From Necropsobacter rosorum (GTDB taxonomy: Bacteria > Pseudomonadota > Gammaproteobacteria > Enterobacterales > Pasteurellaceae), in contig CCMQ01000008.1 in NCBI GenBank assembly GCA_000751835.1, positions 1 to 64,000 on the forward strand: DNA of 64,000 bases, given 5' to 3'. The position numbers were made by a program, and so were the translations under genes. Below are positions 4,111-60,502 of the stretch, piece after piece. The notes beneath the pieces are model-generated. The model saw nothing but the letters and a program-made list of their open reading frames with translations. It had not been told where the DNA came from and made no database searches. The first letter of the stretch is position 1; each line of letters starts with the position of its first letter.

Positions 4111-4177
4111 ATTACCTTTCCCGCTCAAAATCCTTTAAAATAGCCGGACTATCGACACTCAACAGAGGGCAATATTT

Positions 4178-5104: not shown

Positions 5105-5174
5105 ACGTTCTGCCGGGCGCTGCCAATGCCTGCATTGAGATAAGATGTCCGCCGACACTCGGAAACAGACCATT

Positions 5175-37511: not shown

Positions 37512-37512
37512 T

Positions 37513-38754: not shown

Positions 38755-39383
38755 CGGAAGCAGAACAAAAACAACAAATGGTACGCTTAGCCAAATCGCT
38801 GTTTGATCGCGGCTACAGCGTGGGCGGCGCAGGCAATTTGTCCGTGCGGCTGGATTCGCAGCGCATTTTAGTCACGCCGACCGGCTCATCGCTGGGTCGT
38901 CTGGAAGCTGAGCGGCTGTCCGTACTGGATATGCAGGGCAATCTGTTAAGCGGTGATAAACCGTCCAAGGAATCGGTGTTTCATTTGGCTATGTACCGGA
39001 AAAATCCGGACTGTCAGGCCATTGTGCACCTGCATTCCACTTATCTGACCGCCCTGTCCTGTATCGAAAATATCGATACGGCAAACGCCATTAAAGCCTT
39101 TACGCCCTACTATGTCATGCGCGTGGGCAACTTGCAGGTGATTCCTTATTATCGTCCGGGCGATGTCAATATCGCGCGCGAACTGAGCGAACGCGCCCTC
39201 AGCGGCAAAGCCTTTTTGCTGGCCAATCACGGCATTGTAGTGACCGGTTCGGATCTGCTGGATGCCGTGGATAACAGCGAAGAGCTGGAAGAAACCGCCA
39301 AGCTGTATTTTCTCTTACAGGGACAAAAAATCCGTTATCTGACCGATAGCGAAATCAACGATTTAGCACACAGAGGAAAATAG
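38751..39383 (+). CDS. otnC: 3-oxo-tetronate 4-phosphate decarboxylase (class II aldolase family)
   Basis: Decarboxylates 3-oxo-tetronate 4-phosphate to dihydroxyacetone phosphate and CO2. 210 residues with class II aldolase features: zinc histidines in [13 protein letters not shown] (near 88-100) and the third in [10 protein letters not shown], acidic residue in PSKESVFH. It overlaps otnK by 4 bp (ATGA). Alone it could be read as fuculose-phosphate aldolase; the neighbours decide. Confidence 0.9.
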
Positions 39384-39385
39384 TT

Positions 39386-40162
39386 ATGCCTAAATTTGCA
39401 GCCAACCTCACCATGATGTTTAACGAAGTACCGTTTCTAGACCGCTTTGCCGCCGCGGCAAACGCCGGCTTTCAGTATGTGGAATTTCTCTGGCCCTATG
39501 ACTATCCGGCCGCGGAATTAAAAGCCAAATTGGATCAGTACGGTTTAAAACTGGTGCTGTTCAATACCCCGGCGGGCGATGTCGGCCAAGGCGAATGGGG
39601 TGTTTCCGCCATTCCGGGGCGGGAGTCGCAAAGCCACCAGCATATTGATCAGGCGCTGGAATATGCCCTTGCCCTCGGCTGCCCGAATGTGCATGTGATG
39701 GCGGCGGTGGTGCCGGAAGGTGCGGATCGCAACGCTTACCGCCAAACCTTTATTCAAAACGTGCGCTATGCGGCGGATAAATTCAAACCGCACGGCATTA
39801 ACGTTCTGCTTGAAGCGTTAAGCCCGGCGGTTAAACCGAACTATCTGCTGAAAAGCCAGCTGGATACGCTGGATATCGTCGAAGCGGCGCAGCGCGATAA
39901 CGTTTTCGTGCAGCTGGATTATTTCCACGCGCAGAATGTGGACGGCAATTTATCCCGCTTAACCGACAAGCTCAACGGCAAATTCGCTCATGTGCAGATA
40001 GCCTCAGTGCCGGATCGCCACGAACCGGACGAAGGCGAAATCAATTATCAGTATATTTTCGACAAACTCGACCAACTCGGCTATACCGGTTATGTCGGCT
40101 GCGAATACAAACCGCGCGCCGACACCGCCGCCGGTCTGGATTGGTTTGCAAAATATAAATAA
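39386..40162 (+). CDS. otnI: 2-oxo-tetronate isomerase (hydroxypyruvate isomerase family)
   Basis: Converts 2-oxo-tetronate to 3-oxo-tetronate, between LtnD and OtnK. 258 residues, a TIM barrel of the Hyi family: [21 protein letters not shown] at the start (abbreviated: [18 protein letters not shown]), glutamate in LLEALSP (near 142), metal residues in QLDYFHAQ and GCEYKP. The GAGGAAAA ribosome site lies in the end of otnC. Confidence 0.92.
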
Positions 40163-40202
40163 AAACGACCGCACTTTTATCAAGCGTATCGATTATAAAA
40201 TT

Positions 40203-40229
40203 AACGCGCTGCGTTAAGCCGCGCGTTTT
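40203..40229 (+). terminator. Hairpin between otnI and the GntP permease gene
   Basis: AACGCGC pairs with GCGCGTT across an 11-nt loop, followed by TTG rather than a long T-run. Probably a weak terminator or processing site inside the operon. An uptake sequence (40168-40176) lies just upstream. Confidence 0.4.
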
Positions 40230-40250
40230 GTTCCCTGTTCGGAGGGGTGT

Positions 40251-41603
40251 ATGTCAAATGAAATTCTTATTTTAATCGGCTTATCCAGCGTTATCGCGTT
40301 GCTGGTGATTATGATCAAAGGTAAAGTTCATCCGTTTCTCGCCTTAGGTCTGATCAGTATCGCCGTTGCCTTAAGCGCCGGTATTCCGATGAGCAAAGTG
40401 ATTCCCACCTTAATCAGCGGCATGGGCAGCACTTTAGGCGGCGTTGCGCTGATCGTGGGGTTAGGCGCAATGCTCGGTAAAATTATCGAAAAATCCAACG
40501 GTGCCGATGTATTGGCCACTTGGCTGCTCAACAAATTCGGCGAGAAAAACGCGCCTTTCGCCTTAGGGGCGACCGGCTTTATTTTCGGTATTCCGGTGTT
40601 TGTCGATGTGGGCTTTATCGTCCTGATTCCGATTATTTTCAGCGTGGCAAGACGTATCGGCGGCAATATGCTGGTCTATGCCTTACCGATCGGACTGTCC
40701 ATGTTGATGGTGCATGTGATGCTGCCGCCGCATCCGGGCGTGGTTGCCGGCGCACAGACGTTACAGGCGGATATCGGTCTGGTGCTGGGTATCGGACTTA
40801 TCGCCGCATTACCGGCTTATTTACTCGGTCAGCTGTTTATTCCGTTTTTCACCAAACGCAATTTCGTCAGCATCCCGACTTCCAGCGATTTAATTCAATA
40901 TCAAAAACAGGTGCTGCACGACGGCGGCTTACCGAAATTCAGCACCGTGTTAGGCATGATCGTGACACCGCTGATCTTAATCATGCTGGGCACCGTCACC
41001 GCCACCACTTTACCGCCGGAAAATATACTGCGCGAAGTGTTCAGTATGATCGGCAGCTCGCCGTTTGCGCTGCTGTTTTCCGTCTTTCTCTCTTCTTATG
41101 TGTTGGGTATCCGTCGCGGTTGGGATAAAAACAAACTGGAAGAGATTCTCAACTCCGCCCTTGCGCCGATTGCCGGCATTATCTTAATCACCGGTGCCGG
41201 CGGTATGTTCGGCAAAGTGCTGGACGCCAGCGGCGTCGGCAAAGCGCTTTCCGAAGTGCTGGCCAGTACCGGCCTGCCGCTGCTGGTGCTTGCCTTCGTG
41301 TTATCCTCGCTGCTGCGGGCGGCACAGGGTTCGGCCACCGTTGCCATCATCACCACGGCGACCATTCTGGCGCCTGCCATTGCCGCCGAACAGTATACCG
41401 GTATCCAAATCGCATTGCTGACTTCGGCAATCGGTGCCGGCGCGATGACGCTTTCCCATGTCAACGACAGTTTATTCTGGGTCTGGACAAAATTCTTCGG
41501 CATTTCTATCTCCGAAGGATTAAGAACCTGGTCCATTTTAACCACAATTTACGGCATATTCGCATTTCTCTTTATCTGTATTCTGTGGGCATTTTTCGGC
41601 TAA
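40251..41603 (+). CDS. GntP-family acid-sugar permease (HI1015 type)
   Basis: An inner-membrane symporter of 450 residues with about 12-14 hydrophobic segments and the GntP signatures GLGAMLGKIIEKSNGAD and HVMLPPHPGVVAGA. In H. influenzae the equivalent gene ends the same cluster. Likely carries L-threonate or related tetronates. RBS GGAGGGG. Followed by a strong terminator. Confidence 0.9.
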   Translation: MSNEILILIGLSSVIALLVIMIKGKVHPFLALGLISIAVALSAGIPMSKVIPTLISGMGSTLGGVALIVGLGAMLGKIIEKSNGADVLATWLLNKFGEKNAPFALGATGFIFGIPVFVDVGFIVLIPIIFSVARRIGGNMLVYALPIGLSMLMVHVMLPPHPGVVAGAQTLQADIGLVLGIGLIAALPAYLLGQLFIPFFTKRNFVSIPTSSDLIQYQKQVLHDGGLPKFSTVLGMIVTPLILIMLGTVTATTLPPENILREVFSMIGSSPFALLFSVFLSSYVLGIRRGWDKNKLEEILNSALAPIAGIILITGAGGMFGKVLDASGVGKALSEVLASTGLPLLVLAFVLSSLLRAAQGSATVAIITTATILAPAIAAEQYTGIQIALLTSAIGAGAMTLSHVNDSLFWVWTKFFGISISEGLRTWSILTTIYGIFAFLFICILWAFFG

Positions 41604-46904: not shown

Positions 46905-48272
46905 ATGTTTTATAACCAATTATTTAATTTCTCCGCCTGTCCAGATATCCGAATTTCCATCTTAGGCGCTAACGGCGGCTTCGGTTATTCGTTACTGGCG
47001 CAATGCAAACTGATCAATAAAATTCACGTCGCCGTAGTCTGCGATATCGATACCGAAAAAACACAGCAAATTTTAACCGCACTTGGCTGGCATTCCGATG
47101 CCGTCAGACGGTGTTCGACCCTTGAAGAAATAGCGGAAACCGTCGCCCGACGCGGTACGGCGATTATCAACGCGCCGGAATTATTGCCCTTATGTCCGGT
47201 AGATATGCTGATTGAATCGACCGGCAATCCTGAACTCGGCGCAGTGATTGCGGAACGTGCGTTAATTCATAAACAACATGTAGGCATGGTTTCCAAGGAA
47301 ACCGAAGCGGTCGTCGGGCCTTATCTGGCCAAACTGGCGCAAACTCACGGCGTCACTTATACGACGGTGGACGGCGATCAACCCAGCAACCTGATTCATT
47401 TGTACACTTGGATTCATTCCCTCGGCTTAGAAATTATCGCTGCGGGGAAATCCAGCGAATACGATTACATTTGGTCTGCGCAAGAAAATAAAATCCGTTA
47501 TCTGGATAAAGAGGTTTCCGTTCCGGATTTTCGGCATTTATGGCAGCTGGAGGGCAATGTGGAAACGATACTCGCCCAGCGCAGTAAAATGCTGCACGCG
47601 CTGCCGCAATATGCCACGCCGGATTACTGCGAAATGAACGTTGTTGCCAACTCACTGAACCTGAGCGTCGATAAACCGGAGCTGCATTATCCGATCTGCC
47701 GCATAAACGAATTGGCCGATATTTTTATTCCGCAGCAAGACGGCGGGATTTTACGGCATCAAAATGTGGTCGAGGTATTCAATTGCCTGCGCCGGGAGGA
47801 TGAACTCAGTTTTGCCGGCGGCGAATTCGTGATCGTAAAATGCCATAATCAGGCCGTCTGGCAGATTCTTAAAGAAAAAGGGCATATCGTCAGTCGGCAT
47901 ACTCAATATGCCGCGATTATTCTGCCGTATCATTTAATGGGTGTGGAATCACCGATTTCTATCTTCTCCGCCGTGCTGCATAACCGAGCCAGCGGCAACC
48001 CTGAACAAAAACCGGTACTGATTATGGCCGGTCAGGCCGAACGGGATTTCAGCCAAGGCGAAACCCTCAGTATGGGCGGCCACCATCATGTGATTCATCA
48101 CGTCAGACCGTTACTATTGCCTCGTTCGGCGGAAAACCGCAATCTCGCGCCGTTCTATTTGATGTCGAACAAAACCTTGCGGCGGAATGTGGCCAAAGGC
48201 GAGCTATTTACCCTGTCCGATGTGGATTTAAGCGATTCCGAATTATATCGAATGTATAAACAGCTGGCTTAA
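46905..48272 (+). CDS. Homoserine-dehydrogenase-like NAD(P) oxidoreductase with C-terminal SAF-like domain (COG4091 type)
   Basis: 455 residues. An N-terminal Rossmann domain (ISILGANGGFGYSLLAQC, near 17-34) with catalytic features LIESTGNPELGA and VSKETEAVVG recalls predicted homoserine dehydrogenases that carry a SAF domain. The C-terminal about 80 residues (LPRSAENRNLAPFYLMSNKT, KGELFTLSDV) look like an SAF domain. It is likely to oxidise or epimerise a hydroxy acid imported by the GntP permease next door, not to make threonine. No substrate is assigned. Last gene of its module, followed by a hairpin. Confidence 0.7.
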   Translation: MFYNQLFNFSACPDIRISILGANGGFGYSLLAQCKLINKIHVAVVCDIDTEKTQQILTALGWHSDAVRRCSTLEEIAETVARRGTAIINAPELLPLCPVDMLIESTGNPELGAVIAERALIHKQHVGMVSKETEAVVGPYLAKLAQTHGVTYTTVDGDQPSNLIHLYTWIHSLGLEIIAAGKSSEYDYIWSAQENKIRYLDKEVSVPDFRHLWQLEGNVETILAQRSKMLHALPQYATPDYCEMNVVANSLNLSVDKPELHYPICRINELADIFIPQQDGGILRHQNVVEVFNCLRREDELSFAGGEFVIVKCHNQAVWQILKEKGHIVSRHTQYAAIILPYHLMGVESPISIFSAVLHNRASGNPEQKPVLIMAGQAERDFSQGETLSMGGHHHVIHHVRPLLLPRSAENRNLAPFYLMSNKTLRRNVAKGELFTLSDVDLSDSELYRMYKQLA

Positions 48273-48512: not shown

Positions 48513-48538
48513 TGTTTTTCTGAAAAATGAGAAAAACA
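48513..48538. promoter_or_regulatory. Inverted repeat upstream of pdxA2
   Basis: TGTTTTTC and GAAAAACA separated by 10 bp. Possible operator for the SorC-family regulator encoded in the operon. Confidence 0.35.
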
Positions 48539-48548
48539 TCACACTTTT

Positions 48549-48563
48549 GTCATTTGAAATGAC
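48549..48563. promoter_or_regulatory. 15-bp perfect palindrome upstream of the pdxA2 promoter
   Basis: GTCATTT-G-AAATGAC, centred about 29 bp upstream of the CRP site. A likely binding site of the pathway regulator, probably the SorC-family protein at 54464. Confidence 0.5.
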
Positions 48564-48576
48564 GTAATGGCGAGAA

Positions 48577-48592
48577 TGCGATCCAGATCACA
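48577..48592. promoter_or_regulatory. CRP site of the large catabolic operon (class II spacing)
   Basis: TGCGA-TCCAGA-TCACA: one half canonical CRP-N, one half CRP-S-like. Its centre (48584.5) lies about 41 bp before the start point predicted from the -10 box, the normal class II activator position. Confidence 0.7.
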
Positions 48593-48618: not shown

Positions 48619-48672
48619 TTAGCATAACAAAAGTTAATGCAATGTTCTTTTGAACAAAACTGGAGAGCCTTT

Positions 48673-49689
48673 ATGACAAAACCGACCTTAGCTTTATTAC
48701 TTGGCGATCCCGCCGGTATAGGGCCTGAGCTGGTTGCTAAATTATTAGCTCAGGATGCACAGCGCGCTAAAGCCAACATTGTGCTTATCGCAGACAGACA
48801 GGAATTACGCAAAGGTATGCAAATCGCACAGGCGGATTTTGAGTTTGATGAAATTTCAACGCAGGATTTACCGCACTATCATTTTAAACCCAATATTCCC
48901 GTTCTGATTCATCACCAATGTTCCCGCCCCGAACCGTTCGAATACGCTACGGCAACGGCGCAAAGCGGGGTTTATATGCTGGAAACCCTGAAAAAAGCGG
49001 TGGATTTGGCTCAGGCCGGTCATGTGCAGTCCATTTGTTTTGCGCCGTTAAATAAACAGGCGATGCATAAGGGAGGCTTGCAATATCGCGATGAGCTGCA
49101 TTGGTTTGCGGATCAAACGAATTATCGTGATTTTGTCTGTGAGCTGAACGTGGTCGATCGCATCTGGGCCGCCCGGGTCACGTCACATATTCCGTTTAAA
49201 GACATTGTGCCGAATTTATCGGTGCAAGCGGTTATCGACTGCATCTTACTGCTCTATCGTTCGTTAACCCGGGCCGGCGTTAAACAACCTAAAATTGCGG
49301 TGCAGGCGTTAAATCCCCATGGCGGCGAGGGCGGTGTGTTCGGTGATGAGGAAATCACCATCATTAAACCGGCCATTGAAAAGGCCAAAGCGGAATACGG
49401 CATTGATCTTTACGGGCCGTTCCCGAGCGATACGACCATGCGGGAAGTGCAGCGTTTGGCTCTCGACGGTGTGGTGTCCATGTATCATGATCAATTTTCG
49501 ACCGCCTTGAAATTGCTGGGCTTCGAACGCGGCGTGACGGTTCAGGGCGGCATTCCGATTCCGATTGCGACGGCCAACCACGGCACGGCTTATGATCTGT
49601 ACGGAAAAAACGTTGCCATTCCGACCGCACTTGAGACTGCGTTTAATATCGCGGTTCGGATGGGACAAGGCGTTCTTGAATCTCAATAA
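48673..49689 (+). CDS. pdxA2: PdxA2-type 4-phospho-tetronate dehydrogenase
   Basis: NAD-dependent oxidation and decarboxylation of 4-phospho-D-threonate or 4-phospho-D-erythronate to dihydroxyacetone phosphate in characterised PdxA2 enzymes. 338 residues from the ATG at 48673 (GGAGAG ribosome site). LLGDPAGIGPELVAK (near 10-24), NPHGGEGGVFGDEE and metal-site YHDQFSTALK are PdxA-family motifs. The context is sugar catabolism, not pyridoxal synthesis. A DUF1537 kinase normally supplies its substrate, but none lies in this operon; otnK is 10 kb upstream. First gene of the operon. Confidence 0.85.
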   Translation: MTKPTLALLLGDPAGIGPELVAKLLAQDAQRAKANIVLIADRQELRKGMQIAQADFEFDEISTQDLPHYHFKPNIPVLIHHQCSRPEPFEYATATAQSGVYMLETLKKAVDLAQAGHVQSICFAPLNKQAMHKGGLQYRDELHWFADQTNYRDFVCELNVVDRIWAARVTSHIPFKDIVPNLSVQAVIDCILLLYRSLTRAGVKQPKIAVQALNPHGGEGGVFGDEEITIIKPAIEKAKAEYGIDLYGPFPSDTTMREVQRLALDGVVSMYHDQFSTALKLLGFERGVTVQGGIPIPIATANHGTAYDLYGKNVAIPTALETAFNIAVRMGQGVLESQ

Positions 49690-49719: not shown

Positions 49720-50727
49720 ATGAGCAGTAGAAAACCGAAAAAATTATTGAATAATCCGCATGATGTGCCGGCAGAACAGTTGGAAGGTTTGATTTACGCC
49801 TGCGGGGGAAAGCTGATTAAAGTTGACGGCGTCAGCGGGGTAATCCGGCATGATATTGCCGATGATCAGGTCGTTGTCGTCACCGGCGGCGGCAGCGGTC
49901 ACGAGCCGATGTTCGCCGGCTATGTGGGAAAAGGGCTGGCGGATGCGGCGGCATTGGGCGAGATTTTCGCCTCACCGTCGCCGGATATTATTATCGAAAC
50001 CGCAAAAGCGGCGCAAAAAGGCAAAGGCGTCTTATTTGTGTACGGTAACTATGCCGGCGATAACATGAATTTTGATATTGCCGCGGAATTACTGGAGGAA
50101 GAAGGCATTCCGGTCAAAACGGTACGGGTCAGCGATGATATTTCCGCCGCGCCGCTGTCGCGCATGACCGATCGCCGCGGGGTGGCCGGCGATATGTATG
50201 TGCTGAAAATCGCCGGTGCGGCGGTGCAGGCGGGCTATGATCTGGAGAAATTACATGAAGTCGCCGCCAAAGCCAACTTTAATACCAGAACCATGGGCGT
50301 GGCGCTCGGCGCCTGCTCGATTCCGCAAACCGGTAAATTTAATTTCGAATTGGCCGACGATGAACTGGAACTCGGTATGGGAATCCACGGCGAGCCGGGC
50401 GTGCGCCGTCAGAAAATGGCTGCCGCAGACGACATTAACGGCGAAATCATCGACGCCATTTGTCATGATATCGGTTTAACTGCCGGAGATCGCGTTTGCG
50501 TGACCGTTAACAATCTCGGCGCATCAACCTATAGCGAACTGTTTATTGCCTACAGAAAGGTTTATCAGGAATTGACCCAGCGCGGTATCGACATCTATGA
50601 CACGCTGATCGGCGGTTATTGCACCTCACAGGAAATGGCGGGTTATTCGATCACGCTGTTCCGTTTAGATGACGAGCTGCAAAAACTTTACGATATGCCT
50701 TGCGACAGTTTCAAATGGAGAAAATAA
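49720..50727 (+). CDS. dhaK: DhaK-type kinase subunit (dihydroxyacetone/tetrulose kinase)
   Basis: Binds a short ketose covalently through a histidine for phosphorylation by DhaL. 335 residues: GGGSGHEP (56-63), YAGDNMNFD (111-119, with the catalytic aspartate) and the covalent histidine H223 in GMGIHGEPG. Two bases separate it from dhaL. No DhaM gene is in the window, so the pair may use ATP, as do relatives that phosphorylate erythrulose. The downstream isomerases make L- or D-erythrulose (or apulose-like ketose) a likelier substrate than dihydroxyacetone. Confidence 0.88.
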   Translation: MSSRKPKKLLNNPHDVPAEQLEGLIYACGGKLIKVDGVSGVIRHDIADDQVVVVTGGGSGHEPMFAGYVGKGLADAAALGEIFASPSPDIIIETAKAAQKGKGVLFVYGNYAGDNMNFDIAAELLEEEGIPVKTVRVSDDISAAPLSRMTDRRGVAGDMYVLKIAGAAVQAGYDLEKLHEVAAKANFNTRTMGVALGACSIPQTGKFNFELADDELELGMGIHGEPGVRRQKMAAADDINGEIIDAICHDIGLTAGDRVCVTVNNLGASTYSELFIAYRKVYQELTQRGIDIYDTLIGGYCTSQEMAGYSITLFRLDDELQKLYDMPCDSFKWRK

Positions 50728-50729
50728 CC

Positions 50730-51359
50730 ATGAACGTGACAGAAACCAAAGCCTTACTTTTATATACGGCGGAAAAAATGGTGGAAAGTGAACCGCACTT
50801 AACCGAACTTGACCTGAAAATCGGTGACGGCGATCACGGTTTGGGCATGCAGCGCGGGTTTGCCGCAGTCCGCGATTTACTACGCAGCGAGACGTTCCAA
50901 CCGAAAGACATCGGCGAGTTATTATTAACCGCCGGCACCAAAATGATGTCCAGTATGGGCGGTGCCTCCGGTGCGATTTTCGGCACTTTATTCCGGGCGG
51001 GCGGCAAAGCATTGGCCGGTAAAGCGGAATTTAACGCTGAGGCTCTGTCGCAGTTTCTCAGCGCCGGCGCCAAAGCGGTATTTGAGCGCGGCGGGGCAAA
51101 ACCGGGAGATAAAACCATGATCGATGCCTTGGCCGCCGCGGACGCGCAATCCCAGACAGTGCGGGAGAACAGTTTAAAAGACGCGCTGAGTGCGGTGGCA
51201 AAAGCCGCGGCACAGGGTGCGGAAAACACCCGCAACCAGATTGCCGTTTTCGGCCGGGCGAAAAGTCTGGGCGAACGCTCTTTAGGCTATGTGGATCCCG
51301 GTGCGGTGTCCATGTCGTTGATTCTGCAATATATGTCCGATTATGTGAATCAGCATTAA
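50730..51359 (+). CDS. dhaL: DhaL-type kinase nucleotide-binding subunit
   Basis: 209 residues from the ATG at 50730, which is 2 bp after dhaK; an open frame extends upstream without a better start. Mg-ADP/ATP aspartates D28, D33 and D35 lie in DLKIGDGDHG. GGASGAIFGTLF is the phosphate-binding stretch. Works with DhaK. In PTS-linked systems ADP stays bound and DhaM rephosphorylates it; in ATP-dependent ones it exchanges. Sequence alone does not decide. Confidence 0.88.
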   Translation: MNVTETKALLLYTAEKMVESEPHLTELDLKIGDGDHGLGMQRGFAAVRDLLRSETFQPKDIGELLLTAGTKMMSSMGGASGAIFGTLFRAGGKALAGKAEFNAEALSQFLSAGAKAVFERGGAKPGDKTMIDALAAADAQSQTVRENSLKDALSAVAKAAAQGAENTRNQIAVFGRAKSLGERSLGYVDPGAVSMSLILQYMSDYVNQH

Positions 51360-51406: not shown

Positions 51407-52669
51407 ATGATGAAAGAAAATGCATCCCATGTTCGTTGGTTTGTTTTCGGCATTATTTTCCTGCTGGTGGTTATCAACTTAATCGACCGCATTTCCCTGT
51501 CCATTGCGATGCCGACCATCGCGCAGGAATTTGATCTTTCGCCGCAGACTCAGGGCTTGATATTAAGCAGTTTTTTCTGGGCCTATGCCCTGCTGCAAAT
51601 TCCCGGCGGCTGGTTAATCGATAAATACGGTCCGCGCAAAATTATCACCGGTTCCACGGTATTATGGGGGATTTTTCAAACCTTAGCGGCATTTTCAACC
51701 GGCGGACTTTCTTTGCTGGCGGCGCGTTTTATGCTCGGCGCCGCCGAAGCGCCGCTGTTTCCTTCCGGCGGAAAACTCAATGCCACCTGGCTGTCCCCTC
51801 AGGAACGCGGACGCGGCGCAGTGATTATGGATTGCGGCGGCCCGCTTGGTGCTGCGCTGGGCGGTATTATTATCGCCTATATGCTCGCCGGGATCGGCTC
51901 CTGGCGCATTGTGTTCGCTATCGCCGGTATCGTCACGGTGCTGTTAGGCTGGGTTGCCTGGGCATTTTTACGCGATACGCCGCAGCAGCACCATGGGGTG
52001 AATCAGCAGGAATTGCGCTTAATTACCCATCAGACCGCTCAAAGTGCGGTGGATTCTGAGCCGGTTTCGCCGGGCATCGGGGTGGATTTTCCGTCACTTG
52101 CCGCCATTCTGTGCGGTCGCGCCGCTTGGGCGATGATGTTTTTCGGTTTACTCACTTGGGGACCAAGCTATCTGGCTCAGGCGAGAGGATTCGACATTAA
52201 AGGCATCGGCAATGCCACCTTCATTATTTTTCTGTGCGGCGCCGGCGGTTCATTGTGCGGCGGGTTTATTGCCGATATGCTGGTGAAACAGGGCCTGGCA
52301 CAAAAAGTGGTTTTAAAATCCGTTTTAACCTTATCCGGCCTCAGCACCCTTGTCGCATTTTATCTGTTACCGACCATGCAGGATCCTGTCGTGGCGATAG
52401 TCATTTTATCCGTCGCCGCCTTTTTCTTAATGTGGGGTAGCCTGTACTGGAGTTTTCCGGCGCTGTTGGCACCGAAAAACAAAGTCGGCATCGTCGGCGG
52501 CATCATGAATATGGCAGGCAGTGTCGGCGGCATTGCGGTACCGATTTTAGTCGGCATGATTTTAGGCCGCTCGCACAATTATGATCATGTCCTGCTGTTT
52601 TTTGCCGGCTGCTCACTGGTCTATATCTTAGGCACTTTAAGCATTAAGCTAAGCCAAGAAAATAAATAG
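51407..52669 (+). CDS. MFS transporter, anion:cation symporter family, copy 1
   Basis: 420 residues with about 12 membrane segments and ACS-family signatures near the start: NLIDRISLSIAMPTIAQEF, SSFFWAYALLQIPGGWLIDKYGPRK (in part) and RGRGAVIMDCGGPLGAALGG. ACS members carry glucarate, galactonate, hexuronates and similar acids by H+ symport. It is a clear paralogue of the transporter at 60574. Likely imports an acid sugar or lactone for this operon. GGAGG ribosome site. Confidence 0.88.
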   Translation: MMKENASHVRWFVFGIIFLLVVINLIDRISLSIAMPTIAQEFDLSPQTQGLILSSFFWAYALLQIPGGWLIDKYGPRKIITGSTVLWGIFQTLAAFSTGGLSLLAARFMLGAAEAPLFPSGGKLNATWLSPQERGRGAVIMDCGGPLGAALGGIIIAYMLAGIGSWRIVFAIAGIVTVLLGWVAWAFLRDTPQQHHGVNQQELRLITHQTAQSAVDSEPVSPGIGVDFPSLAAILCGRAAWAMMFFGLLTWGPSYLAQARGFDIKGIGNATFIIFLCGAGGSLCGGFIADMLVKQGLAQKVVLKSVLTLSGLSTLVAFYLLPTMQDPVVAIVILSVAAFFLMWGSLYWSFPALLAPKNKVGIVGGIMNMAGSVGGIAVPILVGMILGRSHNYDHVLLFFAGCSLVYILGTLSIKLSQENK

Positions 52670-52679: not shown

Positions 52680-53606
52680 ATGAATACCGAGTTATACCAC
52701 GGCCCGATGATCGACGCGCACCAGCATTTCTGGCAACCGCAGATTAATCCGCATCCCTGGCTGGCGAAAGATGTGCTGATTCCCTTCAGATACGGCGATT
52801 ACAGCGCCATTAAAAAAGAATATCTGCCGCCGGATTATTTAGCCGACGCCACGCCGAAGCATAATGTGGTGGCCACCGTTTATATTGATGCGGAATGGGA
52901 TCCTGATGATCCTATCGGCGAAACGGCTTATATTCATACCGTTGCGGACAAATTCGGCATGCCGAACGCAGTTGTAGCACAAGCATGGCTGCACCATGAC
53001 GATATCGACGAGGTGTTACAACGACAAGCGCGCTATCCGCTGGTCAGAAGCGTTCGGCACAAACCGGCGGGGCCGGCGACGCTAAGAGAAGCGGAAATGG
53101 GATTCAGAACGCTGATGAGTGATGACAAATGGCGGCAAGGTTATCAACTGTTACAGAAATATCGGCTGCATTTTGATTTACAGACACCGTGGTGGAATCT
53201 ACACGAAGCCAAACAGTTGGCGCTGGATTTTCCGGCAACGCTGATTATCTTAAATCATACCGGATTACCGGCGGATCGCTCGGCGGAAGGGTTGCGCGAA
53301 TGGCATAAAGCCATGTCGCAGCTTGCCGATATTGCGAATATCGTGGTGAAAATTTCCGGCCTCGGATTAGCGGATAAACGCTGGAATATCGAAGACAACC
53401 GCTGGATTATTCAGGAAACTGTCCGCATGTTCGGCACCGATCGCGCCATGTTCGCCAGTAATTTTCCGGTTGACAGTTTATGCGGTAACTTAGACACCAT
53501 TTTCGACGGTTTTAAAGACAGCGTGAAAACATATAGTTATGATGAACAATACCAACTGTTTTTCGCCAATGCGCAAAAATATTACAACATCCATGTAGAG
53601 GCATAA
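52680..53606 (+). CDS. Amidohydrolase-family lactonase (COG3618, fuconolactonase-like)
   Basis: 308 residues, cytosolic. The metal/catalytic motif IDAHQHFW (near 12-19) and later NHTGLPADR and MFASNFPVD match the L-fucono-/rhamnono-lactonase and 2-pyrone-dicarboxylate hydrolase branch of amidohydrolases. Predicted to open a sugar-acid lactone. It starts 10 bp after the MFS gene, which may import the lactone or acid. Substrate unknown. Confidence 0.8.
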   Translation: MNTELYHGPMIDAHQHFWQPQINPHPWLAKDVLIPFRYGDYSAIKKEYLPPDYLADATPKHNVVATVYIDAEWDPDDPIGETAYIHTVADKFGMPNAVVAQAWLHHDDIDEVLQRQARYPLVRSVRHKPAGPATLREAEMGFRTLMSDDKWRQGYQLLQKYRLHFDLQTPWWNLHEAKQLALDFPATLIILNHTGLPADRSAEGLREWHKAMSQLADIANIVVKISGLGLADKRWNIEDNRWIIQETVRMFGTDRAMFASNFPVDSLCGNLDTIFDGFKDSVKTYSYDEQYQLFFANAQKYYNIHVEA

Positions 53607-53609
53607 TCG

Positions 53610-54446
53610 ATGACGAATACACTGAAACTTGCGGTAAATACTTCGATTTACGACGGTTACGATATGGAAACCGCCTTGGCTTCAATTAAAAAGTGCGGTT
53701 TTAATTACTTCGAATTAGCCTACAACCAAGGCTATGTCGGTAATCTGAAGCAGGATTTATTCGGTGAGGAAAATGCTGAGAAAATCAACCGGTTAAAACA
53801 AAAATATCAGCTCTCCACCCTTGCTTTGGGCTGTACCATGGATTTGGCGGCGGAAAATTTTGCAGACATCTTCGCACCGCGCATTTATTTTGCCGAATCC
53901 ATCGGGGCGAAATACCTCAACGTCTGCACCACGACACGCCAAAAATATAAACAATTAGTGGCGAATCTGACATCGTTAAAACCGATATTGCAACAAACCG
54001 GCTGTATTTTATGTCTGGAAAACGCCGGAGATGCGAATTTCGATGCCTTCGTCACCTTAAACGACGGGATCGAATTACTCACCGCACTGGATTCGCCGCA
54101 TTACTCAATCAACTTCGATCCGGGCAATATGGTGACGTACGACAGAAACCTGCCTGTTACGGAGCAAGCGATACAGTCGCTTAACTATTCGCGGCATTTT
54201 CATATTAAAGACGTGGCCGTCATCGATCATAAATTCGAGTTTATTCCGATTGAAGGCAACGGGCTGATTGATTACGCCCAAATCATACCGGCGGTAAAAC
54301 AAAAAGATCTGCCTTGCAGTTTTGAAATTCCGTTGAGAATTTACCGCGATTTAGACGCCACGCCGCGCAGAAAAGCCAGCCCCGCGGCGCTTTCCGTCAT
54401 AGAAAATACCTTGATGAGATCAAAAAATTATATTGATTCACTTTAA
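53610..54446 (+). CDS. TIM-barrel sugar (phosphate) isomerase/epimerase
   Basis: 278 residues of the AP-endonuclease-2/xylose-isomerase-like barrel family. LAVNTSIYDGYDMETALASI (start), ILCLENAGD (metal Glu near 132), INFDPGN (near 167-173), HIKD and the last glutamate in CSFEIPLR give the usual metal-binding set. Relatives include UlaE and tagatose 3-epimerase. Starts 3 bp after the lactonase gene. A second, different member is at 61881. The reaction (epimerisation or aldose-ketose change) cannot be told. Confidence 0.82.
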   Translation: MTNTLKLAVNTSIYDGYDMETALASIKKCGFNYFELAYNQGYVGNLKQDLFGEENAEKINRLKQKYQLSTLALGCTMDLAAENFADIFAPRIYFAESIGAKYLNVCTTTRQKYKQLVANLTSLKPILQQTGCILCLENAGDANFDAFVTLNDGIELLTALDSPHYSINFDPGNMVTYDRNLPVTEQAIQSLNYSRHFHIKDVAVIDHKFEFIPIEGNGLIDYAQIIPAVKQKDLPCSFEIPLRIYRDLDATPRRKASPAALSVIENTLMRSKNYIDSL

Positions 54447-54463: not shown

Positions 54464-55417
54464 ATGAAATCTGAAGATGGTGATTTATTAACCGAGATTG
54501 CAATTGCCTATTATGAACATGAGCTGACGCAGGAAGAAATTGCGCAACGCTTTAATATTTCACGGGTTAAGGTCGGGCGCTTATTAAAAAAAGCCCGCCA
54601 GGAGGGCATTGTCGAAATCAATGTTAAATATCACCCGATATTCACGTCTCAATTAGAGAAAAAATTAATCGAACAATTCGGTATTCAGCGCGCCTTAATT
54701 GCCGTTGACGAATACAGTGAAAAAGAACAGCGCAAACAGGTGGCCGCGCTGGTGAACGGTTATCTGGTGAATGTGTTAAAAGACGGCATGACCGTCGCCG
54801 TCGGTCAGGGACGCAATGTCGCCGCGATCGGAGAATATATCGGCATTTCGCCCGAACGAAACTGTAAATTTATTTGCAGTATCGGCGGCACTCAACGCAT
54901 CGGCCCGCCGGTGGATGCGGATCATATTTGCCGTAATCTGGCCAAACGCTTTAACGGGAGCTATGAAACCTTGTATGCGCCGGCCTATCTGGAAAATAAA
55001 GAATTCAGAAGTATTTTCATGAAAAACGGCGTGATTAAAGACACGCTGGATCGCGCCCGCAAGGCCGATATCGCTTTAGTCGGTATCGGCGATATGAACG
55101 AAAACAGCTACATGGTGCAATTGGGCTGGTTCACGCCGAAAGAAATCACCGACGCCCGCATCAACGAAGGGGTCATCGGCGAAATTGCGGGCTACGGCTT
55201 TTTTAATTTGCAGGGTGAATTGGCCGATACCGTGATGAGTAACCGCGTCATCGGTCTGAGTCTGGAAGATTTGCGGGATATTCCCTGCGTTATCGGCATC
55301 GCCTCCGAAAATACCAAAGCGATGGCAATTCTGGGTGCACTCAGAACGGGGATTATTAACGTGATTGCCACCACGGCGACAAATATTAACAGTATTCTTA
55401 ATTTCACCAAAATTTAA
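54464..55417 (+). CDS. SorC-family transcriptional regulator
   Basis: 317 residues: N-terminal HTH (HELTQEEIAQRFNISRVKVG, near 18-37) and the sugar-phosphate-binding SorC domain (MTVAVGQGRNVAA, ICSIGGTQRIGP, VGIGDMNENS). SorC regulators sense phosphorylated sugars made by the pathway they control. It is inside the operon, so autoregulation through the palindromes at 48513-48563 is likely. Confidence 0.92.
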   Translation: MKSEDGDLLTEIAIAYYEHELTQEEIAQRFNISRVKVGRLLKKARQEGIVEINVKYHPIFTSQLEKKLIEQFGIQRALIAVDEYSEKEQRKQVAALVNGYLVNVLKDGMTVAVGQGRNVAAIGEYIGISPERNCKFICSIGGTQRIGPPVDADHICRNLAKRFNGSYETLYAPAYLENKEFRSIFMKNGVIKDTLDRARKADIALVGIGDMNENSYMVQLGWFTPKEITDARINEGVIGEIAGYGFFNLQGELADTVMSNRVIGLSLEDLRDIPCVIGIASENTKAMAILGALRTGIINVIATTATNINSILNFTKI

Positions 55418-55447: not shown

Positions 55448-55903
55448 ATGAAAATTGCGATTGGTTGCGATGAAGCCGCTTACAATTTAAAAGTCGAATT
55501 AATGAAGTATCTGGATTCGCTCGGCATTGAATATCAGGATTTCGGCGCCGATGCCGGTGCGGTGGTGCTTTATCCGGACGTCGCTGAACAGGTGGCGCTG
55601 GCGGTGGCCGACGGCAAATACGAACGGGGAATTTTAACCTGCGGAACCGGTATCGGTATGGCGATTACCGCCAATAAAATCCCGGGGATCCGAGCGGCCG
55701 TTTGTCACGATGTGTTTTCCGCCGAACGGGCAAGAAAAAGCAACGATGCGCAGATTATCTGTTTCGGTGAACGCGTGATCGGCGTCGAGCTGGCCAAATC
55801 GTTGCTCAAAGTCTGGCTGGAATCGGATTTCGCCGGCGGCGGATCGGCACCGAAAGTCGCAAAAATCAAAGCGATTGATGCGAAATACAGCAAACAACGT
55901 TAA
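55448..55903 (+). CDS. RpiB/LacAB-family sugar-phosphate isomerase, possible D-erythrulose-4-phosphate isomerase
   Basis: 151 residues. It has the base cysteine C65 in TCGTGIGMAI and the substrate motif at the start (GCDEAAYNLK, near 6-15). Compared with ribose-5-phosphate isomerase B, the start motif has Glu where His is usual (D-H-A-G), and the conserved ring-opening His before N-D-A is Ser here (ARKSNDAQ, about residue 98). An enzyme without the ring-opening His fits an open-chain tetrose phosphate, as in erythritol-type pathways (EryI/DerI). RBS AAGGAGA. Confidence 0.85.
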   Translation: MKIAIGCDEAAYNLKVELMKYLDSLGIEYQDFGADAGAVVLYPDVAEQVALAVADGKYERGILTCGTGIGMAITANKIPGIRAAVCHDVFSAERARKSNDAQIICFGERVIGVELAKSLLKVWLESDFAGGGSAPKVAKIKAIDAKYSKQR

Positions 55904-55942: not shown

Positions 55943-56920
55943 ATGCCAAAAACGACTCTGATTTCCACCGCACTTTTTAGCGCATTATTGTCCGGTTCCG
56001 TGTTCGCTGCGGGACAACATACCTTCGCCTTAAGTCATTACGGCTCGCCGAGCGATACGGTTACCAAAGCCACCGAATTTATGGCCAAACGGGCAAATGA
56101 ACTTTCGAACGGGAGGATCACGATTAAACTGCATCCGAACAGCGAACTGGGCAACTCGGACACGCAAATCGACGGCACCCGCATGGGCACCATTGATATT
56201 GTGGTGGTCGGCAATCCGTATTACACCACATTTAATGAAAAGCTGAATTTACTGGATTTGCCTTTCCTGTTCAGAGACGAACAGCATGTAGAAAAAGTAC
56301 TTAACAGCGACGTGGGCGAGCAGCTGTTAAATTCGCTGGAAGAATCCAATTTAAAAGGGCTGGCGTTTTATGAAATCGGTTTCCGCGATATTACCAACAG
56401 CAAAAAGCAAATTAACACGGTGGCGGATCTGTCCCATTTAAAACTGCGCACCACGCCGAACCCGGCGCATATCGCCGCCTTTAAGGAATGGGGCGCCAAT
56501 CCGACCCCGATGCCGTTTAACGAAGTGTATTTCTCGTTAAAAACCGGCGTGATCGACGGTCAGGAAAATCCGGTGCATCATATTTATAACAACAATCTGC
56601 AGGAAGTGCAGAAATACCTTTCGCTAACCCATCACGCTTATACCGCCGCCCCGATGTCGATGAATCTTGACCGCTTTAACAGTCTGGATCAGGAAGATCA
56701 GGCGATTTTATTGCAGGCGGCGAAAGAAGGCGCCGAACTGGAGAAAAAACTGAACATAGAGGAAAACAAAATTTATCTGGATAAACTCAAACAGCAAGGC
56801 ATGGAGGTCGAAACCCATCCGGATGTGGCGACATTCCAACGCGGTGCGCAGAAAGCCTGGGATGACTATGCGCAAAAATTCGGCCGGGAGATGATTTCCA
56901 AAGTGACGGAAACCCAATAA
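55943..56920 (+). CDS. TRAP transporter substrate-binding protein (DctP family)
   Basis: 325 residues with signal peptide (about 1-22, cleaved near VFAA-GQ). DctP-family features: HYGSPSDTVTKATEF near the start, the carboxylate-binding arginine in LKLRTTPNPAHIAAF (near 150), and MPFNEVYFSLKTGVIDGQEN. The arginine means the ligand probably has a carboxylate, so an acid rather than a neutral tetrose. First of three TRAP genes. RBS TGGAGG; an uptake sequence lies in the signal region (55967-55975). Confidence 0.93.
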   Translation: MPKTTLISTALFSALLSGSVFAAGQHTFALSHYGSPSDTVTKATEFMAKRANELSNGRITIKLHPNSELGNSDTQIDGTRMGTIDIVVVGNPYYTTFNEKLNLLDLPFLFRDEQHVEKVLNSDVGEQLLNSLEESNLKGLAFYEIGFRDITNSKKQINTVADLSHLKLRTTPNPAHIAAFKEWGANPTPMPFNEVYFSLKTGVIDGQENPVHHIYNNNLQEVQKYLSLTHHAYTAAPMSMNLDRFNSLDQEDQAILLQAAKEGAELEKKLNIEENKIYLDKLKQQGMEVETHPDVATFQRGAQKAWDDYAQKFGREMISKVTETQ

Positions 56921-56952
56921 CGGCAGGTTCAGGCTAACGGGGACAAACGATT

Positions 56953-57429
56953 ATGATCGAGCAATATGAAAAATTCATCAACAAAACCTTTTTATCATTG
57001 GGGTGCGTCTTTTTTCTCGTTATTGTCGTCATGACATTTATCCAGGTCATCACTCGGTATGTGGTGAACATTTCCTTTCCATGGGCGGAGGAATTTCTCC
57101 GCTTCTGCTACACCTGGATGATTCTGTTCGGCATATTAACCACCACGCAAATACAGGTTCCGCTGTTGAGAATTATGATCTTTGAGAAATTTAAATACGG
57201 CTGGTTATTATCTTCTCTGCTTTACATCATCATGCTGATTTGCCTGTTTTTATTAATCAAAGGCGGTATCAAAGTCTATTCGATGAACCTGAAAAGCTAT
57301 TATTCGGCGTTCAAAATTTCAAAAGCCTGGGTATATATTCCGTTTATCATCTGCCTGTCTTTGGAGATGATCAGAATCGTTATCGCCTCGGTGTCCTTGG
57401 TTAAAACGCATAAAGTGAGGGAATTATAA
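56953..57429 (+). CDS. TRAP transporter small membrane subunit (DctQ family)
   Basis: 158 residues with four hydrophobic segments (about 15-37, 50-65, 85-107, 125-147). WAEEFLRFCYTWMILFG is the typical DctQ motif near 46-62. Its stop overlaps the start of the large subunit by one base. Confidence 0.92.
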   Translation: MIEQYEKFINKTFLSLGCVFFLVIVVMTFIQVITRYVVNISFPWAEEFLRFCYTWMILFGILTTTQIQVPLLRIMIFEKFKYGWLLSSLLYIIMLICLFLLIKGGIKVYSMNLKSYYSAFKISKAWVYIPFIICLSLEMIRIVIASVSLVKTHKVREL

Positions 57430-58721
57430 TGTCATTTATTGTCTTGCTCGGCGTAATGTTCGTTCTGACGGTGTTAGGTCTGCCGCTCTTTTACAGTATT
57501 ATCTTCGCCTCAATCGTCACCTTATTTTATTTCCTGCCGACCATTCCGATCACCATTGTGGCGCAACAGGTCATGCAGGGGCTGGATACCAATGCGCTAC
57601 AGGCGCTGGCATTCTTCTTCCTGGCCGGCGAGTTAATGAGCGTCGGCGGCATCACCACCCGCATTATCCGTTTTGTCACCGCATTAATCGGACGCTGGAA
57701 AGGCTCCCTTGCCTATATCAATATTTTTTCCAGCCTGTTTTTCGGCTCCATCAGCGGTTCGGCGGTGGCGTCAACTGCGGCAATCGGCAGTTCCTTAATT
57801 CCGGCGATGAAAAAAAACGGCTATCCGGCGGATTTTTCCGCCGCACTGACGCAGTCCGCCTCGATTATCGGCCCGATTATTCCGCCCAGTGTGCCGATGA
57901 TTGTGTTTGCCGCTCTGGCCGGCGCCGGTGTGTCGGTGGGTAAAATGTTTATGTCGGGCATTATTCCCGGCATCATGATCGCATTAACCCTGATTCTGGT
58001 GACGTTCGTACTAAGCAAAATCTATAAATACGGCAATCCGGCCACGCCGTTTGACTGGCAGGAAGTAAAAGCAAGCGCCAAAGATGCGCTGTGGGCGTTA
58101 CTTTGTCCGATCATTATTCTGTACGGCATTATTTCCGGCATTTTTACCGCCACGGAAGCGGGAGCGGTCTCGGTAGTTTATGCCTATCTGGTCGGTACTT
58201 TCGTGTATAAAGAGCTGAGTATCGAACTGCTGAAAAAAGCCCTGTTTTCTTCACTGAAAGGCACCATCACCGTGATGCTGATTGTCGGCGCGTCCTCCAT
58301 TTTCGCCTGGCTGATCGCCCGTTTACAAATCAGTCATCAGGTCGCGTTATGGGTATCCGCCGTGTGCGACAGCCCGCTGGAAGCGCTGATTCTGATTAAC
58401 GTCATCGTGCTGTTTATCGGCATGATTATGGATCCGACCGCGGCACTGACCATTCTGGTGCCGGTATTTATGCCGATCGTCAATCAGTTCGGTATCCATC
58501 CCGTGCATTTCGGTCTGGTGATTGTGTTAAATCTGATGATTGGGCTGGTCACCCCGCCGGTGGGCTATTTAATTTTTCTCTCTGCCAACATTGCCGAATG
58601 CGAACCGATGCGGGTATTAAAAGAAAGCCTGCCGTTTTTACTGTCGCTGTTCGCGCTGTTGATCCTGTTAATTCTAGTCCCTGAATTCAGCACCTGGTTG
58701 CCGAATCTGTTGTTCCCGTAA
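57429..58721 (+). CDS. TRAP transporter large permease subunit (DctM family)
   Basis: 430 residues with about 12 hydrophobic segments. DctM motifs include FFLAGELMSVGGITTRI, SGSAVASTAAIGSSLIPAM and GMIMDPTAALTILVPVFMPI. With DctP and DctQ it makes a Na+-driven high-affinity importer for a carboxylate substrate. Confidence 0.94.
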   Translation: MSFIVLLGVMFVLTVLGLPLFYSIIFASIVTLFYFLPTIPITIVAQQVMQGLDTNALQALAFFFLAGELMSVGGITTRIIRFVTALIGRWKGSLAYINIFSSLFFGSISGSAVASTAAIGSSLIPAMKKNGYPADFSAALTQSASIIGPIIPPSVPMIVFAALAGAGVSVGKMFMSGIIPGIMIALTLILVTFVLSKIYKYGNPATPFDWQEVKASAKDALWALLCPIIILYGIISGIFTATEAGAVSVVYAYLVGTFVYKELSIELLKKALFSSLKGTITVMLIVGASSIFAWLIARLQISHQVALWVSAVCDSPLEALILINVIVLFIGMIMDPTAALTILVPVFMPIVNQFGIHPVHFGLVIVLNLMIGLVTPPVGYLIFLSANIAECEPMRVLKESLPFLLSLFALLILLILVPEFSTWLPNLLFP

Positions 58722-58729: not shown

Positions 58730-59407
58730 ATGATGAATAAGTGGATTGACCTCAGCATGCCGATTTGCGCCGATCACATTCGCTGGCATGCCGATATCAC
58801 GAAAAAAGGCCGTTTTGCCCAAGGCGATTTATTCGAAGCCACGCAATTACAGGTTTCCTGTCATGCCTTCACCCATATGGACGCATTAAGCCATATTCAA
58901 CAAGACGGCTACACTATTTTGGATATTCCGATCGAAACCTATATCGGCGAATTTCATGTTTTGGATTTATCCGCTCAAATAACCGATAATTTTGCCATCA
59001 CGGCACAGGTTCTGGATGCCGTCTTTCCCGCCGAGCCGGTCAGCAAAATTATTTTCAAAACCTGTTGGGATACCCATTACAGCTACAATTCAACCCAATT
59101 CTGGGGCAATGCGCCCTATATCACCGCCGACGGCGCGGCCTATTTGGCCGACAAAGGTTTAACCATTATCGCCTTCGATTTCCCGCAGGATTACCCAATT
59201 CGAGGCTGGCTCAGCGGCACCATGGAAAAGCCGCTGAGCAAACATGTCACCCATCATCATTTATTGCAAAAGGGCATCACTCTGGTCGAATATCTGTGCA
59301 ACACCCGAAAAATTACCGGTCGGACGGTTGATGCGTTAATGATACCTATCGCCATCGACAATGCCGACGGTTCTCCTTGCCGGGTGTTAATCAAAAATAA
59401 GGAATAA
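58730..59407 (+). CDS. Cyclase-family metal hydrolase, second copy
   Basis: 225 residues. The metal motif is SCHAFTHMDALSHI (near 43-56), a variant of the usual HxGTHxDxPxH in which Ala-Phe replaces Gly and Ala-Leu-Ser replaces the proline region, so the active site differs from the copy at 43020. Possible amide or lactone hydrolase for the substrate imported by the TRAP system immediately upstream (8 bp). Ends 3 bp before the isomerase-EIIB gene. Confidence 0.72.
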   Translation: MMNKWIDLSMPICADHIRWHADITKKGRFAQGDLFEATQLQVSCHAFTHMDALSHIQQDGYTILDIPIETYIGEFHVLDLSAQITDNFAITAQVLDAVFPAEPVSKIIFKTCWDTHYSYNSTQFWGNAPYITADGAAYLADKGLTIIAFDFPQDYPIRGWLSGTMEKPLSKHVTHHHLLQKGITLVEYLCNTRKITGRTVDALMIPIAIDNADGSPCRVLIKNKE

Positions 59408-59410: not shown

Positions 59411-60502
59411 ATGAAAAATAAAAAAATTTATTTCGGTACCAATTTAAAAATGTACAAAGGTAATGCGGAAACGGTGAATTATTTGACCGCACTTTCTCAT
59501 CTGGCGGAACAATTGCCGTCGCACTATGACATCGAATTATTCGTGATTCCCTCTTATACCACGCTCAAAGACGCCACCACCCTGATGGCGTCCGAACACA
59601 TGCGCCGCAAAATCACCATCGGCGCGCAAAACCTCAACGCCAATGACAGCGGGCAGTTTACCGGGGATATTTCCCCGCTTATGCTGAAAGAAATCAATAC
59701 GCAGCTGGTTATGATCGGGCATTCCGAACGGCGGCATATTATGAAAGAAACCGATCAGGAAGAAAACGAAAAGGTGATTGCCGCATTAAAGCACGGCTTT
59801 ACCACGTTGCTTTGTGTCGGCGAAACGCTGGAGCAAAAAAATTATGCCATTTCCGATGAAATATTGCGCATGCAATTAAAAATCGGTCTGCACGGCATTC
59901 AGCCGCATCAGCTGGACAAACTTTGGATCGCCTATGAACCGGTATGGGCGATCGGTAACAACGGGGTTCCTGCCAGCGCCGAATATGCCGATGCAAAACA
60001 TGCCGTGATCAAACAGTGTTTATTTGAATTATTCGGCGCAAACGGCCGTGATATTCCGGTGCTGTACGGCGGCAGCGTCAATCCGGAAAATGCCAATAAA
60101 CTGATTGTAAAACCGCATATCGACGGGTTATTTGTCGGCCGCAGCGCCTGGGATGCCGATAAATTCTACGCCCTAATCCGGGATGCGTTGCACACCCTAT
60201 CCGAAGGAAAAACCGACGCAGCACCGCAAGCCTGCGAATTGACCGCCACCGCCAAGCAATTAATCGCCCTGTTAGGCGGGCAAGACAATATCGTGGCGTT
60301 GACCCATTGTGCGACCCGGTTGCGGGTCGTGTTGAAAAACGACGGCAAAATGGATAAATCCGGCATTGAAAAACTCAAGGCAGTGAAAGGATTATTTTCC
60401 ATTACCGATCAGTATCAAATCATCCTGGGCGCAGACATCGTGCATGTCGTGTATGCGGAAATGGTCAAACAAATGACCGCACCCCAACAAGTGGCGCACT
60501 AG
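59411..60502 (+). CDS. Triosephosphate-isomerase-like enzyme fused to a PTS EIIB domain
   Basis: 363 residues. Residues 1-262 are a complete TIM: N11/K13 in GTNLKM (where canonical TPI has GNWKM), H104 in IGHSERR, E176 in AYEPVWAIG, phosphate loops GGSVNPENA (220-228) and GLFVGRSAW (239-247). After a short linker, residues 281-356 are a glucose/beta-glucoside-type PTS EIIB domain: ALLGGQDNIVALTHCATRLR with phosphocysteine C300, then KAVKGLFSITDQYQIILG. The TIM part likely isomerises tetrulose phosphates (EryH/LerI-like). The EIIB part lacks EIIA or EIIC partners in the window and may control the isomerase. One open frame, no sign of misassembly. Confidence 0.88.
   Translation: MKNKKIYFGTNLKMYKGNAETVNYLTALSHLAEQLPSHYDIELFVIPSYTTLKDATTLMASEHMRRKITIGAQNLNANDSGQFTGDISPLMLKEINTQLVMIGHSERRHIMKETDQEENEKVIAALKHGFTTLLCVGETLEQKNYAISDEILRMQLKIGLHGIQPHQLDKLWIAYEPVWAIGNNGVPASAEYADAKHAVIKQCLFELFGANGRDIPVLYGGSVNPENANKLIVKPHIDGLFVGRSAWDADKFYALIRDALHTLSEGKTDAAPQACELTATAKQLIALLGGQDNIVALTHCATRLRVVLKNDGKMDKSGIEKLKAVKGLFSITDQYQIILGADIVHVVYAEMVKQMTAPQQVAH

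Follow-up and report, generated by a model that had tools for sequence, protein, structure and literature searches.

A sucrose-type EIIB domain without EIIC stays with one Pasteurellaceae operon while its carrier protein changes

The known routes by which the PTS is coupled to non-PTS sugars use EIIA-Glc, HPr, or the EIIB domains of permeases and regulators, and an EIIB without an EIIC exchanges phosphate with EIIA-Glc and cannot hand it to a sugar. The closest described cases in which the phosphorylation state of an EIIB is read by a regulator, or acts within one, are EIIB-Glc with Mlc and the EIIB-like domains of MtlR (of EIIB-Gat type) and of PRD regulators. In those cases the domain is part of a permease or of a transcription factor, whereas at the locus described here it sits on a metabolic enzyme. 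In PMC3901232, Mlc reads EIICB-Glc, a precedent for a regulator that sees the phosphorylation state of an EIIB, and a title cited in PMC8560693 supplies MtlR as an EIIB-regulator precedent. The EIIB of the sucrose permease ScrA (EIIBC) belongs to the same subfamily as the one at this locus and shares about 50% identity with it, but ScrA has an EIIC and the protein studied here does not.

On the enzyme side, the protein can be likened to Brucella EryH (TpiA2), a D-3-tetrulose-4-phosphate/L-erythrulose-1-phosphate isomerase with a TIM fold, a loop 6 containing GIPAS, and an RpiB-type partner, EryI. EryH carries no EIIB, and the kinase in Brucella is EryA, whereas the operon studied here has DhaKL. 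Passages of PMC5992420 describe EryH and EryI as tetrulose-phosphate isomerases named TpiA2/RpiB, and cite homologues of these isomerases as acting on L-erythrulose after dihydroxyacetone kinase.

We analysed a window of 64,000 nucleotides of Necropsobacter rosorum (the whole stretch of DNA under study), in which a single open reading frame with an ATG start (59411-60502, + strand, 363 amino acids) joins a TIM domain to an EIIB domain. Pfam matched TIM at residues 9-257 (E 7.7e-71) and PTS_EIIB at residues 282-315 (E 3e-14), both above their cut-offs. The active-site residues N11, K13, H104 and E176 of TIM are present, as is C300 of EIIB within THCATRLR; Pfam and alignment thus bore out a sequence-only reading of the frame that had pointed to these residues. 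The PF00367 match and the phosphocysteine place the C-terminal part among glucose-family EIIB domains. In searches of solved structures, the best relative of the whole protein was the L-erythrulose-1-phosphate isomerase 11ef (E 1.5e-55), which we take to be Brucella EryH, and the C-terminal 90 residues matched the PTS IIABC component 3ipj (E 4.3e-18) and EIIB-Glc entries. The AlphaFold2 model (mean pLDDT 83.5) fell below 50 at residues 267-274 and stood at about 90 over most of the EIIB part, a pattern that predicts two folded domains joined by a flexible linker. The fusion is the last enzyme gene of an operon that also encodes DhaK, DhaL, RpiB and a TRAP transporter; the features of the operon are as follows.

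48528-48592, +: two CRP-like sites (putative; 48528-48543 and 48577-48592), upstream of pdxA, one mismatch each
48637-49689, +: PdxA-family dehydrogenase, first operon gene as drawn (family match, synteny of relatives)
49720-50727, +: DhaK subunit (family match)
50700-51359, +: DhaL subunit, placed with the DhaM-less type (family match, tree)
51407-52669, +: MFS transporter, nearest to galactonate-type models and below their cut-offs (family models)
52680-53606, +: lactonase-like Amidohydro_2 protein, which some relatives lack or replace (Pfam, NCBIfam, synteny)
53610-54446, +: AP_endonuc_2 TIM-barrel protein (Pfam)
54464-55417, +: SorC/DeoR-type sugar-binding regulator (Pfam, NCBIfam)
55448-55903, +: RpiB-family isomerase, D-erythrulose-4-phosphate isomerase-like (NF051858 at 166 bits, below its cut-off of 240; above the RpiB cut-offs)
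55943-58721, +: TRAP transporter P, Q and M genes (family match for P and M, position only for Q)
58730-59407, +: cyclase-like protein (PF04199), the EIIB carrier in one relative, G326 (Pfam, relatives)
59411-60502, +: TIM-EIIB fusion of PRK14905 type, 363 amino acids (NCBIfam NF011497 over the full length, 620 bits against 485)
59411-60181, +: TIM-barrel part, residues 1-257, a putative EryH-like tetrulose-phosphate isomerase (Pfam TIM, 11ef, loop 6)
60182-60238, +: linker, residues 258-276, disordered in the model and fast-evolving (pLDDT below 50 at 267-274; dN/dS 0.30-1.04)
60239-60466, +: sucrose-type EIIB domain, residues 277-352, phosphocysteine C300 (Pfam, NCBIfam, structure match, selection, tree)

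Three other stretches of the window were recorded. At 29229-30920 lies a YadA-anchored surface protein containing a long series of almost identical NKTAIAQNK-type repeats, and 36606-41603 holds a cluster that we take to resemble a D-threonate/erythronate pathway (DUF1537 kinase, aldolase, isomerase, GntP). A 455-residue DRL_cat-family oxidoreductase at 46905-48272 adjoins a GntP-type transporter and had no NCBIfam match at E 1e-10.

The frame had been put forward as an architecture without a described counterpart. A domain-architecture search, suggested along with that claim, overturned it: NCBIfam NF011497 (PRK14905), named 'triosephosphate isomerase/PTS system glucose/sucrose-specific transporter subunit IIB', spans residues 1-355 at 620.1 bits against a cut-off of 485, with the same domain order. 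This is the protein's own family, and novelty of the architecture was therefore rejected. The entry consists of a name only, which gives the EIIB no function and implies a substrate that is probably wrong. Against PRK15492, the model of a stand-alone TIM paralogue, the fusion scored 455.5 bits, below the cut-off of 509, while a stand-alone copy in G333 passed (527.9). In annotation of Pasteurella multocida the fusion carries the gene name tpiA. A literature search over titles and abstract openings, with most subscription journals outside its scope, yielded no paper that we recognised as dealing with the function of a TIM-EIIB fusion.

We then assessed how widely the fusion occurs, using 295 genomes of the order, 140 of the family and 398 of the phylum, plasmid records, and the best 80 of 170 named relatives. 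NF011497 was exceeded in 3/295 genomes of the order (all three in Pasteurellaceae), in 16/140 Pasteurellaceae genomes and in 1/398 genomes of the phylum, the window's own, with 0/14 controls in each case; below the cut-off, nearly all genomes matched through TIM proteins (294/295 in the order, 140/140 in the family). Fourteen of the 16 family genomes encode TIM-EIIB fusions, and the remaining two (G326 and G327) encode a free-standing TIM at that locus. Among the genomes searched, the fusion was thus seen only in Pasteurellaceae (14/140 family genomes). The best 80 of the 170 named relatives comprised 12 Pasteurellaceae loci (nine fusions, one cyclase fusion, one separate form and one second stand-alone copy) and 68 others; none of these 68 matched beyond residue 283 of the fusion, and their flanks contained no EIIB among open reading frames of at least 80 amino acids, overlaps pruned. 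Named carriers of the fusion include Haemophilus massiliensis, Testudinibacter aquarius, Lonepinella koalarum, Gallibacterium, Pasteurella canis, Avibacterium and Actinobacillus, although the nine named fusion loci largely duplicate the 140-genome set and add names rather than independent counts. In the plasmid collection, 3/906 matching records covered at least 80% of the fusion, all three from Pasteurella multocida at 96% coverage. One P. multocida 'plasmid' record (L238, NZ_CP113523.1) contains rpoD and dnaG together with the operon and is probably a mislabelled piece of chromosome. A strain-specific assembly artefact, which would have undone the earlier reading, was rejected, as the same fusion occurs in 14/140 family genomes and in the three P. 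multocida records.

The operon is syntenic in relatives over the stretches fetched, in the order pdxA, dhaK, dhaL, MFS, amidohydrolase or other genes, AP_endonuc_2, SorC regulator, rpiB, TRAP P/Q/M, cyclase-like gene and TIM. We used TRAP M as an operon marker (at least 85% identical) and found it in 17/140 family genomes; one of these, G123 (L229), was excluded when EIIBs were counted, as its contig stops within the cyclase gene. All 16 readable operons contain an EIIB, but not always on the isomerase: 14 have TIM-EIIB, one has cyclase-EIIB and one has a separate, broken EIIB. In Conservatibacter flavescens (G326), the cyclase-like protein carries the EIIB at its C-terminal end, and an internal Met occupies the very position at which an independent gene would begin. 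In Cricetibacter osteomyelitidis (G327), a separate EIIB frame begins a few bases past the TIM stop and then breaks off into transketolase sequence close to the end of the contig (L079, about 10088), which may reflect a deletion or an assembly chimera. In a tree of six operon proteins, with moderate support and weak deepest forks, these two arrangements sit among TIM-EIIB operons, so relocation of the EIIB looks derived. By gene arrangement, the EIIB is a component of the operon and not specifically of the isomerase.

Conservation was examined across the 14 aligned fusions. N11, K13, H104, E176, C300 and R303 were invariant in 14/14, which answers the question of whether C300 is kept across genomes, and R305 was kept in 13/14, with H in its place in G384. 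Mean identity among fusions was 72.2% for TIM, 37.2% for the linker and 60.6% for EIIB. By the Nei-Gojobori method (10 chosen pairs, 9 defined), dN/dS was 0.03-0.09 for TIM, 0.30-1.04 for the linker and 0.05-0.28 for EIIB, the last over only 77 codons; dS was near saturation in several pairs. These ranges suggest that the EIIB is maintained and the linker is not, and judged by them both domains are under purifying selection.

The results also bear on what the TIM part does. Canonical TPI has IGTGK as its loop 6; the fusion lacks this GTGK loop and has IGNNGVPAS, the EryH-like form, against IGENGIPAS in 11ef. When 164 TIM-like frames of the fetched loci, duplicates included, were sorted by a text filter, 112 had an IPA-type loop, 30 had GTGK and 22 had another; the 12 of these 22 that were displayed read GKPA or GLPA. 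An RpiB-type partner lies within the operon, and the four TIM catalytic residues are kept in all 14 fusions, as expected of an EryH-type enzyme. Against a tetrulose reading, the fusion passes the general TPI model TIGR00419 (tim), though barely, at 138.6 against 130.6 bits. Overall, the TIM part looks probably like an EryH-type tetrulose-phosphate isomerase rather than a glycolytic TPI; the label triosephosphate isomerase given to it earlier probably names the wrong substrate, as loop 6 and the neighbouring genes point to a tetrulose phosphate. A second stand-alone TIM of the same type was seen in G206, G332 and G333 (L067 5623-6447, L080 9604-10389, L081 9310-10092), in a different operon with PdxA-like, OtnK-like and RpiB-like genes; the OtnK-like gene is presumably DUF1537.

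The neighbouring genes suggest that the operon encodes a non-PTS catabolic pathway, probably ending in erythrose 4-phosphate. DhaKL would yield L-erythrulose 1-phosphate, the TIM part would convert this to D-erythrulose 4-phosphate, and RpiB would convert the latter to erythrose 4-phosphate. Transaldolase lies directly 3' of the fusion in 6/16 loci of other genomes (L065, L070, L072 and L077, with L075 and L076 cut by a contig end), and transketolase lies behind it in 5/16 (L065, L072, L074, L077, L078) and is broken in a sixth, L079; such neighbours would suit erythrose 4-phosphate as the product. In G377 (L071), a 1314-residue frame downstream of the operon (2308-6252) contains two segments matching transaldolase (83-85%), with another transaldolase match at 8-553. 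A D-apionate pathway, considered as a possible substrate route, was set aside after a literature search yielded nothing that looked relevant. In PMC9650167, pdxA, rpiB, the sugar-binding regulator, the TRAP binding protein, dhaK, dhaL and sucrose PTS IIBC of P. multocida are among 11 genes strongly increased in one isolate, a joint increase indicating that the operon is probably co-expressed.

To place the EIIB within the PTS of the organism, we searched its genome with PF00367, PF02378, PF00358, TIGR01417 and TIGR02364. The fusion EIIB was the sole match of these five profiles in the window, in agreement with the earlier statement that no other PTS gene lies there. The genome encodes six EIIC (PF02378), all with an EIIB: four in the same frame and two of fructose type with their own IIB (a fructose IIBC and a fructose-like IIC). 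PF02378 thus revealed no EIIC partner, fused or orphan, for the fusion EIIB in this genome. Beside the fructose-like IIC and IIB lies an 832-residue EI-like protein with a fructose EIIA part (L240 279-2777). EI and EIIA-Glc (PF00358) were each found in 16/16 operon genomes. The fusion EIIB was nearest to the sucrose type, and in a tree built on a short alignment the operon EIIBs grouped with sucrose- and trehalose-type EIIB.

The window's genome has a second EIIB without EIIC, a 108-residue frame immediately following the permease gene in an ABC operon of ribose type, and similar stand-alone frames behind an ABC sugar permease occur in four genomes in all.

L204 8185-8511 (G000:C4:127184-127507, the window's genome): stand-alone EIIB behind ABC sugar permease
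L205 8022-8309: the same
L234 5035-5313: the same
L235 5004-5294: the same

In the window's genome this operon also contains a ROK regulator, closest to the NagC and Mlc models and below their cut-offs, an FGGY kinase and a gene that we take to be an SDR. G326 has the same gene set, and G324 and G314 have the kinase, the ABC genes and the EIIB, the fetched stretch starting inside the kinase. The second EIIB grouped with NagE/PtsG-type EIIB in the same short-alignment tree, where neither EIIB set is cleanly monophyletic. Other stand-alone EIIB frames (G386-G389, G136) adjoin unrelated genes, so not every solitary EIIB sits in such an operon.

Several explanations of the EIIB were weighed against these observations. 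The sequence-only reading had offered two: that the domain senses the PTS state and gates the isomerase, or that it docks the enzyme to a PTS permease encoded elsewhere. An intramolecular gate, in which phosphorylation of C300 directly alters the activity of the attached isomerase, fits the fusion in 14/16 readable operons and the selection on both domains, but it is weakened by the EIIB on the cyclase-like protein in G326 and in a separate frame in G327, and by a linker that is flexible in the model and hardly constrained in sequence; we regard it as unlikely. The sensing half of that proposal has fared better and, given a conserved C300 under selection, is part of the reading we prefer. Docking, in which the EIIB would pair with an EIIB-less PTS permease and bring the isomerase to the membrane, draws on the usual partnership of EIIB with EIIC and on cross-talk of PTS transporters reported in Bacillus subtilis (PMC6148471). 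It has lost ground, since each of the six EIIC (PF02378) of the genome has an EIIB of its own and uptake in this operon is by TRAP/MFS, and it now seems quite improbable. The slimmest chance goes to a functionless passenger left by a chance fusion: restriction to one family and the broken G327 copy agree with a relic, but purifying selection, the conserved active site and the presence of EIIB in 16/16 readable operons despite carrier changes do not.

It was also considered that the EIIB donates phosphoryl groups to the operon's DhaKL kinase in place of DhaM. DhaK and DhaL are common to the operon and to DhaKLM, and some relatives pair a similar TIM with DhaM (L146, L155, L159), but the operon has no DhaM gene and the EIIB is not a DhaM domain. 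The idea arises from this absence and from the failure to find DhaM in 9/16 operon genomes; in the window's genome, the DhaM domain (TIGR02364) matched only on contig C9 and not on contig C8, which carries the fusion. Among solved structures, the operon DhaL is closer to the PTS type (125 bits) than to the ATP type (62 bits), and an EIIB is kept in every readable operon. In the tree, however, the operon DhaL falls with the DhaM-less type and away from DhaL encoded beside DhaM, on a long branch that calls for caution about long-branch effects. The 'DhaM-less' label in this tree rests on flanks, and four loci so labelled (L112, L113, L133, L136) have nearby a 25-27% match to the long DhaM; G658 and G525 have DhaM, and their DhaL falls on the DhaM side. 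No DhaM was found in any of the eight relatives with DhaK/DhaL or a fused DhaKL near TIM, and two of these (Apibacter L130 and the MAG L137, which may be incomplete) had no EI at E 1e-50, indicating that the PTS is probably dispensable for this type of kinase. A donor role for the EIIB is therefore a long shot.

The explanation we favour, to which we give an even chance as a whole, is that a tetrulose-phosphate isomerase carries an EIIB that would serve as a PTS-state sensor or adaptor for a non-PTS catabolic operon. C300 would receive its phosphate by way of EI, HPr and EIIA-Glc, the route that serves sucrose EIIBC, and because no EIIC is there to take the phosphate, the occupancy of C300 would report EIIA-Glc~P and thereby show whether the cell is using preferred PTS sugars. 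The two states of the EIIB might then bind or release a partner, either the regulator or an operon protein, and the pathway might thereby be held back while PTS sugars flow. Fusion would set the dose and place of the EIIB, and gating of the isomerase would not be required. To our knowledge, regulators of the SorC type, the type in this operon, are not known to bind EIIB. Further observations count against this explanation: the EIIB is less conserved than TIM, R305 is replaced in G384, the separate EIIB of G327 is broken, and the two putative CRP-like sites may already provide catabolite control (four such sites in the window against 0.92 expected, with 2/100 shuffles as high).

The fusion itself is ordinary, with a database name and a narrow range; what is unusual is a PTS domain maintained on changing carriers in non-PTS operons, and what is new here is that the EIIB is tied to the operon and not to the isomerase. 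For annotation, the results suggest a database correction, as Pasteurella multocida 'tpiA' is probably a tetrulose-phosphate isomerase. Taking the TRAP/DhaKL tetrulose operon and the ABC/FGGY-kinase operon together, we tentatively propose, while holding it somewhat likelier to fail than to stand, that EIIB domains lacking an EIIC serve as mobile adaptors for the PTS state. On at least two occasions, and from different PTS subfamilies, Pasteurellaceae would have recruited them into sugar operons that do not use the PTS, where they would swap carriers freely and tie those pathways to the phosphorylation state of EIIA-Glc. If this is true, an EIIB on a metabolic enzyme, on its neighbour, or free would be a new kind of PTS link.
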